NCBI GenBank assembly: GCA_040757115.1
Contig: JBFLYA010000047.1
Location: 4,788-21,831 of the forward strand
DNA: 17,044 nucleotides
Reading direction: 5' to 3'
From: a bacterium
GTDB lineage: Bacteria; UBA9089; CG2-30-40-21; SBAY01
Below the pieces are notes generated by a model, which saw nothing but the letters and a program-made list of their open reading frames with translations, did not search any database and was not told the DNA's origin. This document shows positions 1 through 16,862 of this stretch, piece by piece (the first letter of the stretch is position 1; every line of letters starts with the position of its first letter). A program made the position numbers and the translations under genes.

Positions 1-199
1 ATCCTGCGATGATATATCCGCCATCTGTGGTCTGCTGCACGGAATAGCCCCTATCATCAGAACTTCCGCCGTAAGTCTTCTCCCAGAGTGTGTCTGGCTG
101 AGATAGAGCAGGTGAATTAACTCCCAGGCATATCAGGATAGCTAATCCAAATTCAACCCACACTCTCTTTACTATTTCAACATAATTTATGTTTCTCAT
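1..199 (-). CDS. N-terminus of a secreted repeat protein (partial)
   Basis: The frame reads from an ATG at 199 down to base 1 without a stop (66 codons) and continues beyond the window. AAGGAGAT lies about 8 bases upstream of the ATG, which supports this start. Residues 1-34 look like a signal peptide: basic positions near the N-terminus and around residues 11-12, a hydrophobic stretch FGLAILICLGV, then a small-residue site near PALS-Q. The mature part begins with WEKTYGGSSDD and continues to TTDGGYIIAG. This phrase is typical of large exported proteins built from beta-propeller-like repeats that start W-x-K-T-[YF]-GG and contain TxDGGY. The full domain content and any C-terminal sorting domain are outside the window. 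The long upstream region to about 670 may be its 5' leader. Confidence 0.8.
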   Translation of the reverse strand, partial: MRNINYVEIVKRVWVEFGLAILICLGVNSPALSQPDTLWEKTYGGSSDDRGYSVQQTTDGGYIIAG

Positions 200-466: not shown

Positions 467-539
467 AAAACAGAATTTATTCTGTAACTCTTCAGTCACA
501 GATGAACACGGATGAAAATGTAGAAGTGAAAAGTTAAAA

Positions 540-706
540 CGGAATTTCCCCTCTATTTAAATGCAAAAATTTAGCATAACCATTTGCTTTTCAATAAGAT
601 ATAGCGATATCTCTTTTTTTTAATTCCTATCTACAATTGAAAGGGGGATTTAATCCCTAATCCTTTATGATTAAACAATAACATCTTAATTAAATTTTGT
701 CAAGCA
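540..706 (-). repeat. Promoter-bearing dispersed repeat, copy 1
   Basis: About 167 bp matches 5941-6107 without gaps, at roughly 90% identity by eye (about 16 differences). Both copies are in the same orientation. Reading the minus strand, the element opens with a sigma70-type promoter and continues into a potentially structured stretch. That stretch includes the hairpin AGATAT-CGCT-ATATCT (598-613) nested inside TTTCAAT/ATTGAAA. The longest invariant blocks are about 611-690 of the promoter-distal core, while A/T-rich linkers vary. Copy 1 ends about 340 bases upstream of the gene starting at 199, and copy 2 about 270 bases upstream of the glycosyltransferase gene. This arrangement suggests a mobile or duplicated leader/promoter cassette; a short non-coding RNA gene is the alternative. 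Confidence 0.75.
675..703 (-). promoter_or_regulatory. Sigma70-type promoter in repeat copy 1
   Basis: On the minus strand the -35 box is TTGACA (698-703) and the -10 box is TATTGT (675-680), with a spacer of exactly 17 bp. Transcription would start near 668 and run leftward through the repeat toward the gene starting at 199. The same arrangement is kept in the second repeat copy. Confidence 0.65.
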
Positions 707-799
707 GTTTTTAAAAATAATGTAACTATTCACCACAGAGAATAATATGATAAAGTGTCATGTTGCCCTGCAAAAGATTTTCTGGATAAGATATTAATT

Positions 800-3557: not shown

Positions 3558-4706
3558 TTATAAAAGACTTTTTCCTTTTTTAGGTTCTCTTGAATAATCC
3601 TTTATATCTCCAATCATTTCAAGCACATCATAAATATTATCTATTTTACCACCCATAATTATGGAAAAGTTCTTTATCCCGTAATCTTTCCTGAACAATA
3701 TTGGTCTTCCATCGTCTATTTCGTTCTTTATTAAAACAGTTTTAACCTCATATAGAGAATTTACGTATCGAACTCCCTTCATTAATGGAAGATATCTCTC
3801 TGCATCCTTGACCATAAACGGAAAATGTGATTCCAAATTCACTTTCTTAAGATGAGCATGGCCGTCAATAAAATTATCAATGTCCTGCCAACTATAATGC
3901 GGTGTATATCTTACATGATGGAAAGAGTGCATATTTAATGAGGGGTATGGCATAATTGAAAAGAAAGGGCCATCCATAATTGTTATTCCAACATATTTAA
4001 GCTCCTCCGGCATCTCTAACAAGGGCATTTCTGTAACTTCATGCTTTAAAGGTAGTAAAGGAAGATAAGAATTGTGCAATAATTTATTAATTTGGGAATA
4101 GGTGCAATTAAAAACTTTTCTTGCTTGTAATTTAATATTGTTTTTTGTCAGAGATAAAATAATTTCATCATTCCCAACTTGTTCTACTTTGTCAACTTCC
4201 TCATTGTACCAAACAGTGATGCCAGCTTTTACAAGCCTTTGTTTTAAAATCTGTCGAAGCTTAGCGGCATCGAATGCTACCTCTTGAACAGAAAATACCT
4301 CTTCAATATTATCCATATTAAAAAGTCTCCGCATTTTATCAGGGGCAATTTTGATTGGGGCTCCAATCCTTTTATATATTTCACTAAACTGATAGGCGTT
4401 AACTTTTGACCATTTTCTGGCAATTGCATATATTTTTTCAAATTCATCATAAATACATCCCTTGAAATCCAGGATAAATCTCGGGAAATTTTTGAAGGAC
4501 CTAATTGCAGTCAGCAGACTTCTTGGATAATGATATCCCCCATGAACCCTTGCTTGATTGATTGCCGACGCCCTCAATAAGAGATCAGGCTCTTTCTCAA
4601 TAATAAGCGTGTTGGCACAAAAATTTCGGATAATGAGAGCGGTGCAACATCCATAAAATCCACCGCCGATAATAACCGCATCAAACTTTTTCAGATTAAA
4701 TGACAT
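3558..4706 (-). CDS. FAD-dependent oxidoreductase (DAO-like)
   Basis: With the ATG at 4706 this is a 382-residue flavoprotein. FDAVIIGGGFYGCCTA (about 8-23) is the dinucleotide-binding GxGxxG loop, followed by an acidic residue ending strand 2 (LIIEKEP). ASAINQARVHGGYHYPRS (about 47-64) is a flavin-proximal motif of D-amino-acid-oxidase-like enzymes, including members found in polysaccharide clusters. A frame open to 4751 would add 15 residues, but that start lies deep in the upstream gene and lengthens the part before the Rossmann loop. The 4706 start gives an 11-base overlap (ATGTCATTTAA) with the glycosyltransferase stop and suggests translational coupling. The ribosome-binding site is weak. 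The substrate is unknown; action on a sugar or amino-sugar intermediate is inferred from context. Confidence 0.8.
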   Translation of the reverse strand: MSFNLKKFDAVIIGGGFYGCCTALIIRNFCANTLIIEKEPDLLLRASAINQARVHGGYHYPRSLLTAIRSFKNFPRFILDFKGCIYDEFEKIYAIARKWSKVNAYQFSEIYKRIGAPIKIAPDKMRRLFNMDNIEEVFSVQEVAFDAAKLRQILKQRLVKAGITVWYNEEVDKVEQVGNDEIILSLTKNNIKLQARKVFNCTYSQINKLLHNSYLPLLPLKHEVTEMPLLEMPEELKYVGITIMDGPFFSIMPYPSLNMHSFHHVRYTPHYSWQDIDNFIDGHAHLKKVNLESHFPFMVKDAERYLPLMKGVRYVNSLYEVKTVLIKNEIDDGRPILFRKDYGIKNFSIIMGGKIDNIYDVLEMIGDIKDYSREPKKGKSLL

Positions 4707-5670
4707 TTTTTCTATCAATATTCTCGGGAAACACTGAACTATTAGCTTCATCTGCCAAGAAATATATATCTCCCTTTTTAGTCTCTCTTAAAATACGGGC
4801 AACATATTCCCCTATAATCGCTAATATCAGAAACAGCAGGAAAAACATCGTAGCATTTACAAGTTGGGTTGAAATCCATCCTTGTGGAATGTATTTTTGG
4901 AAGAATACAAAACCCGTCAAGACGTAGAGAATTACAAACAAATTCATCATGCTTGCCAATAAGCCAATAAACGAAGCTATTCTTATTAATTTTTCGGAAT
5001 TTGAAACAATAACTTCTATTGCAAAGGCAAAGGCTTTAAAGTAATCTTCTTTCCTTTGATGACCAGAGCGGTTTATCCTTATATATGGTATGGTGGCGTG
5101 GCTAAAACCGATTTCTAATAACAAATACTTAATATATCTACTTCTATCCTTAATCCTAACAATTGAGTTCACTGCCCTTCTACTCAAAACGATAAATTTC
5201 GAAAACCTGGGATTTACATTATAACCGGTCAAGAATTTACTTGCTTTAAAAAATGCCCAAGAAAATAATTTGTCTATAAAGGTTTTATCTCTCTCATCAC
5301 TTTTTTCTGCAATTACAACATCATAACCGGATATTGACTTATCTATCAATTGCGGAATTAAAGACGGCGGGTCATAATTAACATCCATCAATACAATAAA
5401 ATCCCCTATACAATTATTTAATGCAGCTAAATATGTAACCTCATCATCATACTGTTTAGATAAAATTATCAACCTGATATTTTTTATTTCTTTCAGTATT
5501 TCCTTCACTCTTGAAACAGAGGCGTCCGTAGAGCCATTATCAATTAAAACTAATTCATAATTTGCATACGAGCTTTTAAGAACCTCTATCGTGTCTTTAA
5601 TGTAAGATTCTATTATCTCAGCATTGTTATTGATGACCGTTGCTACTGAAATTAAGTTGTCTATATTCAT
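4696..5670 (-). CDS. Family 2 glycosyltransferase with C-terminal membrane helices
   Basis: With the ATG at 5670 the product is 324 residues. The N-terminal GT-A domain shows VLIDNGSTD (about 46-54) and VLMDVNYDPPSLIP (about 94-107), the region that normally carries the DxD and DPP motifs. Two hydrophobic segments near the C-terminus (about 236-262 and 274-298, the second including ATMFFLLFLILAIIGEYVA) match polyprenyl-phosphate glycosyltransferases of the GtrB/ArnC/DPM1 type. Such enzymes load a sugar onto a lipid carrier at the inner membrane. The ATG at 5670 is preceded by GGGGAGAG; a GTG at 5688 is also in frame, but it overlaps that ribosome-binding site and is less likely. The motif reads DVN where DAD is usual, so donor or metal use may differ. 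The oxidoreductase gene overlaps its end by 11 bases. Confidence 0.85.
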   Translation of the reverse strand: MNIDNLISVATVINNNAEIIESYIKDTIEVLKSSYANYELVLIDNGSTDASVSRVKEILKEIKNIRLIILSKQYDDEVTYLAALNNCIGDFIVLMDVNYDPPSLIPQLIDKSISGYDVVIAEKSDERDKTFIDKLFSWAFFKASKFLTGYNVNPRFSKFIVLSRRAVNSIVRIKDRSRYIKYLLLEIGFSHATIPYIRINRSGHQRKEDYFKAFAFAIEVIVSNSEKLIRIASFIGLLASMMNLFVILYVLTGFVFFQKYIPQGWISTQLVNATMFFLLFLILAIIGEYVARILRETKKGDIYFLADEANSSVFPENIDRKNVI

Positions 5671-5788
5671 AATACTCTCTCTCCCCACAATAACATATTG
5701 TCAAATTTACTGATACTCGATGTTCAAGTTTTTTAATGAAGATAAAAGAGATGTAACGAAATTTAGCCTCGTAGAGGACTCTTAAACA

Positions 5789-5895: not shown

Positions 5896-5940
5896 CCATA
5901 GACGGAGTTAAAAAACATTTTTTGCAATTCAATTCTACAA

Positions 5941-6107
5941 CGGAACTTCCCTTCTATTTAAAGGCAAAAATTTAGCATAACCATTTGATTTTCAATAAGA
6001 TATAGCGATATCTCTTGTTTCTGATTCCTATCTACAATTGAAAGGGGGATTTAATTTCTCATCCCTTATGATTATATAATAGCATATTAATTAAATTTTA
6101 TCAAGCA
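5941..6107 (-). repeat. Promoter-bearing dispersed repeat, copy 2
   Basis: Second copy of the element at 540-706, the same length without gaps and about 90% identical. Reading the minus strand, it begins with the promoter at 6076-6104, then an invariant block (TAAATCCCCCTTTCAATTG onward), then the AGATAT/ATATCT hairpin and a conserved block CAAATGGTTATGCTAAATTT. The promoter-proximal CCCCCTTTC run can pair with GAAGGGA at the far end; in copy 1 the facing bases are AGGGGA, so the pairing is kept. It lies about 270 bases upstream of the glycosyltransferase ATG. Confidence 0.75.
6076..6104 (-). promoter_or_regulatory. Sigma70-type promoter in repeat copy 2
   Basis: On the minus strand the -35 box is TTGATA (6099-6104) and the -10 box is TATTAT (6076-6081), with a 17-bp spacer. 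Transcription would start near 6069 and could run into the glycosyltransferase/oxidoreductase pair, leaving a 5' leader of about 400 bases. Confidence 0.65.
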
Positions 6108-6191
6108 TTTTTTTACTAATACTCGTATGCATACTTTCAAAGTCTCTTTTTATAGACTCTTTTTGAGGGGAAGTTTCGTTTAAACCTATTT

Positions 6192-12385: not shown

Positions 12386-12631
12386 CCTCTCTTGAGAGAG
12401 GAAAATCTACTTACGATATGCAACAATTCCCTCTCTGATTTTCATCAGGGCAAGTTTTTGACTACAGCAACATTAAAATTGATTAACAAATCTGATTTGC
12501 CTGCTGAACATTCGGCAAGCAGGTTCTATGTATTTCAATGGCTGCACCAATAATCTTTTCTGTTATCTAATTTATTTCTATGTCTTCTCTGTTCCTCTGC
12601 GTCTCTGCGGTGAATTATTATCTGAACGGTT
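12386..12631 (-). repeat. Gene-end dispersed repeat, copy 1
   Basis: Read on the minus strand, the element starts at the TadE-like stop codon with AACCGTTCAG. It continues with ACCGCAGAGACGCAGAGGAA and the AACAGAGAAGACAT block, then a variable part. It then has the hairpin CTGAT-GAAA-ATCAG (12435-12448) and a terminal hairpin CCTCTCT/AGAGAGG (12386-12401). The second copy at 16678-16862 starts 13 bases after the hisD stop and lacks about 80 bases of the middle. In both, the element lies sense to the gene it follows. Confidence 0.7.
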
Positions 12632-15155: not shown

Positions 15156-15356
15156 TATAGTAAGTATTAACCAAAAGTTCACATTAGTATTGTTGATGGT
15201 TGATAGTTGATGGTTGATGGTTGATAGTCTATGAAACTATAAACTATCAACTATAAACTATAAACTATCAACTATCAACTATAAACTATAAACTATCAAC
15301 TATCAACCCTGTTGCTATATCTGTTCTATGAGAAAATTTCGTTAATAACTACTATA
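15156..15356 (+). repeat. Tandem-armed hairpin repeat, copy 2
   Basis: Shares both flanks with 1284-1428, but the arms are longer: the left arm has more GTTGATG/GTTGATA words and the right arm more CTATCAACTATAAA words. The TCTATGA loop is retained. In the hisD transcript it would be a long 5' hairpin ending about 40 bases before the start codon. Confidence 0.75.
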
Positions 15357-16665: not shown

Positions 16666-16677
16666 AGAAAGTGAGCA

Positions 16678-16862
16678 ACCGTTCAGGTGGTAATTTACCG
16701 CAGAGACGCAGAGGAACAGAGAAGACATGGAAATAAATCAGATAACAGAAAAGATTATTGAGGTAATCTTTGTAATACATAGGACATCAAAACCTTGCAC
16801 TGATGAAAATCAGGGATGGAATTGTTGCCTCTCCTAAATAGATTTTCCCCTCTTGAGAGGGG
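16678..16862 (+). repeat. Gene-end dispersed repeat, copy 2
   Basis: Begins with AACCGTTCAG 13 bases past the hisD stop and follows the same order as the copy at 12386-12631. It carries CTGAT-GAAA-ATCAG (16800-16813) and the terminal hairpin CCCCTCT-TG-AGAGGGG (16847-16862). The terminal stem has different bases from copy 1 but is equally well paired. A run of five T bases follows about 11 bases later, so it could serve as a loose terminator for hisD. Confidence 0.7.

Follow-up and report, generated by a model that had tools for sequence, protein, structure and literature searches.

The dispersed repeat that occurs twice in the window (the whole stretch of 17,044 nucleotides analysed here) is very probably a non-autonomous, internally deleted type I miniature element of an insertion sequence (IS) of the IS1634 family. 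The repeat would consist of the transposase promoter of the IS and a short 5' untranslated leader, followed with hardly anything in between by the final codons of the lost transposase, its stop and the 3' end, and it would close with the right terminal inverted repeat. The element would have been mobilised by transposase from intact relatives, the outer left end would since have been lost by deletion from most copies, and the copies may have been kept because neighbouring genes use the promoter. Most copies are probably immobile, as they lack the outer left end.

The first-pass annotation had described two gap-free copies that were about 90% identical. Both are real: they share 178 nt at 90% identity without gaps (535-712 versus 5936-6113), far above chance level in a BLAST search against the own genome (G000; E 2.6e-64). 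The limits given earlier, 540-706 and 5941-6107, were too narrow for the second copy. The IS left end matches that copy in three pieces (6180-6149, 6145-6109 and 6113-6060), and because the matches at 6180-6149 and 6145-6109 have been kept the element spans 5939-6180 with both terminal repeats. Upstream of copy 1 a left terminal repeat was searched for and not found; its left end stops at a T-run. The features are as follows.

538..721, minus strand: copy 1, a left-truncated miniature element made up of T-run, transposase promoter and IS right end, 89-90% identical to other copies
698..703, minus strand: -35 hexamer TTGACA of copy 1
675..680, minus strand: -10 hexamer TATTGT of copy 1, with a spacer of 17 and TG upstream
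650..663, minus strand: fusion point GGATTAGGGATTAA of copy 1, probably representing the final codons and stop of the transposase that was lost
538..553, minus strand: right terminal inverted repeat of copy 1, GAGGGGAAATTCCGTT, in which CCG is the end and TT opens the flank TTTTAA
5939..6180, minus strand: copy 2, a miniature element with both ends, from the IS left-end matches and the core match at the right
6165..6180, plus strand: left terminal inverted repeat of copy 2, GAGGGGAAGTTTCGTT as read on the plus strand
5939..5954, minus strand: right terminal inverted repeat of copy 2, GAAGGGAAGTTCCGTT
6099..6104, minus strand: -35 hexamer TTGATA of copy 2
6076..6081, minus strand: -10 hexamer TATTAT of copy 2, with a spacer of 17 and TG upstream
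1..199, minus strand: gene downstream of copy 1, for a secreted-type protein (MRNINYVEIVKRVW...), continuing past the window edge
4696..5688, minus strand: gene downstream of copy 2, for a family 2 glycosyltransferase (Pfam PF00535, E 5e-14)

Ends and parentage of the repeat

The boundaries were defined by aligning all copies together with their flanks. The right boundary is sharp at GAGGGGAAGTTCCG, which constitutes the terminal inverted repeat at the 3' end of the element and is followed by unrelated flanks that often start with TTNNAA. Over query 10-64, its promoter half, the repeat shares 83-91% identity with the DNA leading into the start of an IS1634-like transposase on two contigs of the own genome (C121 and C82) and on contig C237 of a sister species of the same genus (G001). 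These three matches are limited to query 10-64 and continue directly into ATGTATGTGTCC..., which in C237 opens the reading frame MYVSRIYREHNHKKYLTVLIQKSIRKGKKVIHQTLANITKWPEH..., and upstream of the C237 promoter lies AACGGAACTTCCTCTC, the reverse complement of the right boundary of the repeat. Thus, since it adjoins the transposase frame and AACGGAACTTCCTCTC mirrors the right boundary, the promoter half corresponds to the left end of the IS. Indeed, that left end starts with AACGGAACTTCCYCTC, the reverse complement of the sharp 3' end of the repeat. Counts of the end motif are 19 and 26 for the two genomes, compared with 1-2 for a control pattern.

The family of the transposase was assigned via full-length homologs. 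The 121-aa remnant in G001, which is related to the transposase at locus L109, by itself matched no Pfam or NCBIfam profile. Full-length homologs of the C237 reading frame, 34% and 33% identical to it across the first ~108 residues, match Pfam DDE_Tnp_1. Moreover, the homologous transposases at L109 and L110 belong to NCBIfam IS1634 (NF033559), with E-values of 1.5e-91 and 6e-83 and scores of 308 and 280 bits at a profile cut-off of 100 bits.

The right end probably carries a trace of a transposase gene. At the right-end junctions of G001 the core of the repeat starts with AAACGGATTAGGAATTAA, which reads KRIRN-stop, and the homologous transposases end in LKRIRR-stop, LIKGRKSR-stop and similar. 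In the small repeat the KRIRN-stop segment is fused to ..TAATCATAA, just short of the expected transposase start. This fusion to the transposase leader therefore marks the repeat as an IS from which the coding region has been removed. A comparable arrangement is seen in a sister genus (G002), where an IS1634-type transposase C-terminus is followed ~80 bp further on by the similar end GGGGGGAAGCTCCG. Of the two ends of the repeat, the left one corresponds to DNA that adjoins the transposase start, and the right one is linked to the transposase by junction pairing and the KRIRN-stop segment only. An intact IS with a transposase and this exact right end on one contig was not found in the G000 and G001 drafts; because the contig with the body between the junctions is absent from both, its identity as a transposase is one that we infer. 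Other IS1634 fragments of the own genome (C66, C181, C201 and C32) were considered as parent and rejected, being without these ends.

Type I MITEs are internally deleted IS derivatives that keep parental sequence (PMC10969869), and the repeat is likewise short (184-242 bp), without transposase and present in multiple dispersed copies. It shares with type I MITEs a size below 500 bp, the lack of a transposase, ends and sequence that appear to be held in common with an IS, a mostly intergenic position, target duplications in young copies and the frequent occurrence of truncated copies. It differs from them in keeping the transposase promoter together with the 3' end, and in the absence of one terminal repeat from most copies. 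In fact, loss of terminal repeats in old MITE copies is established, and in QMITE2 12 of the 78 copies are without ~40 bases at the 5' end (PMC10969869). Within the IS1634 family, ISPfe2 measures 1884 bp, with ends of 13 bp and duplications of 6 bp (PMC3281130). The repeat resembles this family in the type of transposase found next to the IS left end, in ends of ~14-16 bp and in 6-bp target duplications, whereas it is only 184-242 bp long and has no transposase.

Junctions, target sites and the left-truncated form

Six contigs of G001 (C132, C193, C258, C317, C318 and C337) terminate in the IS left end, and at five junctions (C243, C269, C371 at both its ends, and C428) the contig opens with the core. 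Each of them reaches ~120-130 bp into the element, which is what the collapse of a multicopy element by an assembler would produce. Three pairs of junctions can be joined by 6-bp duplications, namely TAAAAG (C337/C243), TTAGAA (C132/C371) and TTATAA (C193/C428). The TAAAAG and TTAGAA sites are uninterrupted in the own genome, where the flanks overlap by exactly 6 bp (L161 759-764 and L160 753-758); the insertion at the former splits a gene that is ATPase-like as judged by its sequence and not by a profile. Since duplications and empty sites pair the junctions in this way, the core constitutes the right end of an element whose left end precedes the transposase. The junction elements of G001 thus have target duplications of the parental length of 6 bp. 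Terminal repeats at both ends are present in these junction elements and in copy 2, and absent from copy 1 and most intergenic copies. The outer flanks of copy 2 are unequal (TTTAAA versus TTGTAG), i.e. its target duplication is not matched.

Copy 1 and the other intergenic copies without a left terminal repeat start at the T-run just upstream of the -35 hexamer, with the exception of the copy on C212, which starts inside the promoter. For independent deletions this left boundary is unusually constant. Moreover, two copies (on C256 and g1C30) have TTACA directly outside both ends, against the T-run, and the site in G001 that matches the C256 copy, which lies upstream of grpE, is empty apart from the word TTACA. 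These flanks and the empty site would fit insertion of the truncated form itself. The mobile unit could then run from T-run to right terminal repeat, with the IS1634 transposase using the proper end and an A/T-rich surrogate at the left. The recurrence of the same T-run in most copies and the exactly empty C256 site speak for this possibility. However, most truncated copies lack a matching duplication, a T-run is a weak end, and deletion between T-runs combined with retention of the promoter could give the same boundary, so that we consider mobility of the truncated form unlikely. The more elaborate proposal that one-ended IS remnants have spread throughout the genus, are kept as ready-made promoters of housekeeping and surface genes (grpE and the genes for RNA cyclase and glycosyltransferase), and move as a truncated unit through a single terminal repeat appears distinctly improbable.

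Two tandem copies, 172 bp apart, are found on C41 of G001 (L067 7401-7756). This arrangement apparently arose from unequal recombination between TTAAATA words, one in the left flank and one at the right end.

The predicted promoter, downstream genes and the RNA reading

As originally proposed, both window copies carry, on the minus strand, hexamers at exactly 17 bp, TTGACA-17-TATTGT (703..675) and TTGATA-17-TATTAT (6104..6076), each with TG upstream. Shuffled DNA yields about as many sites (means 1.7 and 1.2) in a promoter scan taken by itself; what supports the promoter is that the same hexamers recur in other copies and at the transposase start, with the consensus TTGAYA-17-TATTRT for the two window copies. 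From its sequence, this near-consensus extended -10 promoter would fire outward, through ~130 nt of IS 3' sequence, into the downstream DNA. In this respect the repeat is reminiscent of the Correia elements of Neisseria (NEMIS/CREE), which are also of miniature size and lie upstream of genes with a sigma-70-like promoter inside the element (PMC10969869). The elements themselves are unrelated, and the sigma-70-like promoter upstream of genes is a prediction in the present case.

The next gene is on the same strand for both window copies, as had been noted; the distance of 270-340 bases given for it changes to ~340 (copy 1) and ~250 (copy 2) when counted from the element end. The pattern extends beyond the window, in line with what the first-pass annotation had put forward as a check, since all 11 scorable intergenic copies (w1, w2, C31, C74, C212, C256, C185, g1C30, g1C147, g1C50 and g1C142) precede a gene on the same strand. 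The next substantial frame begins 15 to 458 nt away, that of C185 having only 71 codons, and among the proteins encoded are GrpE, RNA 3'-phosphate cyclase, a radical SAM protein and a glycosyltransferase. Orientation is informative where the upstream gene is co-directional, and these copies (w1, w2, C74, C212, C185, g1C30 and g1C142) agree in seven out of seven cases, for which the chance probability is 1 in 128; C31 and g1C50 are flanked by divergent genes, so that either orientation agrees, and for C256 and g1C147 the available sequence includes no upstream gene. Among the copies at contig junctions, several of which interrupt genes, a same-strand gene follows in 3 of 6. The sample is small and the gene calls are open reading frames. 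Use of the predicted promoter by downstream genes is plausible, given the agreement of all 11 intergenic copies (including the seven informative ones) versus half of the junction copies. The pattern fits retention of copies with a helpful promoter or purging of copies that fire antisense.

There is about an even chance, in our estimation, that the promoter is an inert leftover on IS-derived debris, and that the same-strand pattern stems from selection against antisense promoters or from small numbers. This possibility concerns use, not parentage, and its probability is not exclusive with that of the miniature element derived from an IS1634 parent. The informative copies are only seven, and conservation along the element is fairly uniform (0.82 upstream of the -35 hexamer, 0.87-0.93 elsewhere), as expected from a recent common origin and not from selection on the promoter. 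On the other hand, an inert leftover accounts less readily for 11 of 11 intergenic copies facing a same-strand gene versus 3 of 6 at junctions, and for the copy that lies 15 nt from the start of a gene with its own AGGAGG site.

Originally, three options had been left for the repeat: a new cis-regulatory RNA class, a small RNA family or a promoter-bearing miniature element. The last one stands, with the IS1634 family as the parent, and the two RNA options are not supported for want of an Rfam match, excess folding stability or convincing covariation. A structured cis-regulatory RNA or small RNA family, with promoter and hairpins as the functional unit, would be in keeping with the fixed position of the promoter, with a presumed transcribed leader of ~130 nt that is 88-93% identical, and with the same-strand genes downstream. 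Nevertheless, the folding z-scores lie around 0 throughout (-1.3 to 0.9 for 19 copies; near 0 for the window copy on both strands), and the minimum-energy folds differ among copies. The consensus fold has 32 pairs, of which 2 show a two-sided change, in one sequence each. The conserved pairing amid drifting A/T linkers that had been described earlier disappears in an alignment of 14 copies, in which paired columns are conserved no better than unpaired ones (0.955 versus 0.953). In addition, an Rfam scan of the window gave no match, and the presumed core forms the terminus of a mobile element that has a terminal repeat and target duplications. The repeat shows neither a covarying conserved structure nor an Rfam family by which it could count as structured RNA, riboswitch or small RNA, and the RNA-family reading, largely refuted, is now very hard to credit.

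A candidate RNA class is hereby removed, and an ordinary mechanism, with empty sites to hand, takes its place. The natural comparison is between the two close species (both fragmented drafts), which differ in a strong-looking promoter before conserved genes such as grpE.

Distribution and neighbouring repeats

The core is present in 8 copies in the own genome and in ~11 in the sister species. Beyond these two it was not found among the 61 genomes searched, where the other matches concern the general promoter stretch only. In public collections no exact match was obtained for core patterns with 20 to 22 fixed bases; the repeat was likewise without match in phage and viral collections, as were the transposase N-terminus and core pattern in a genome-contig collection. 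The element is newly described and, among the genomes searched, restricted to one genus; promoter-bearing IS remnants as a kind are already known. A CRISPR repeat, suggested by ..TTTCAATTGTAGATAGGAATC.., was dismissed, as the 20-mer occurs singly in each element copy and is never arrayed.

Several other repeats were encountered. A second, related miniature family of ~277 bp with the ends TGGGGGAAGTTCCG/AGGGGGAAGTTCCG is located at L131 3421-3697 (G001 C313), L129 4585-4861 (G001 C24), L123 349-624 (G001 C258) and L128 3513-3798 (G000 C265), with 6-bp duplications at 3 of the 4 sites. Its left part, CTTGACAA included, aligns with the IS1634 left end, and the C265 copy splits an apparent transposase reading frame. 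The C237 transposase is itself interrupted by another repeat, since the block GTAATTTTGGTCAATAAATTTCCC... that follows its start (L055 ~3900-3100, minus strand) recurs in C20 and C338 (L155 and L156). In another family of the phylum (G011; L111 102-630) an IS1634 transposase retains its N- and C-terminal portions but has lost the segment between them, an internal deletion of a similar sort.

Immediately ahead of T-runs and promoters the word CTGAATAGTTAC is met repeatedly (L162 ~1235-1270 on G000 C21, window 721-740 and the left flanks of several copies). At one site it is part of a hairpin, CTGAATAGTTAC-AATTTTT-GTAACTATTCAG, and it may represent the terminus of a further dispersed repeat. The window also contains long inverted repeats of the CGCAGAGACGCAGAG type (12386-12631 and 16677-16862; 109 and 76 nt, 84-87%), ~4 kb apart, and a dispersed pair of ~145-200 nt (1284-1428 and 15156-15356) with matching blocks that are 91-95% identical and a variable GTTGATAGTTGATG / AACTATCAACTATAAAC hairpin array.
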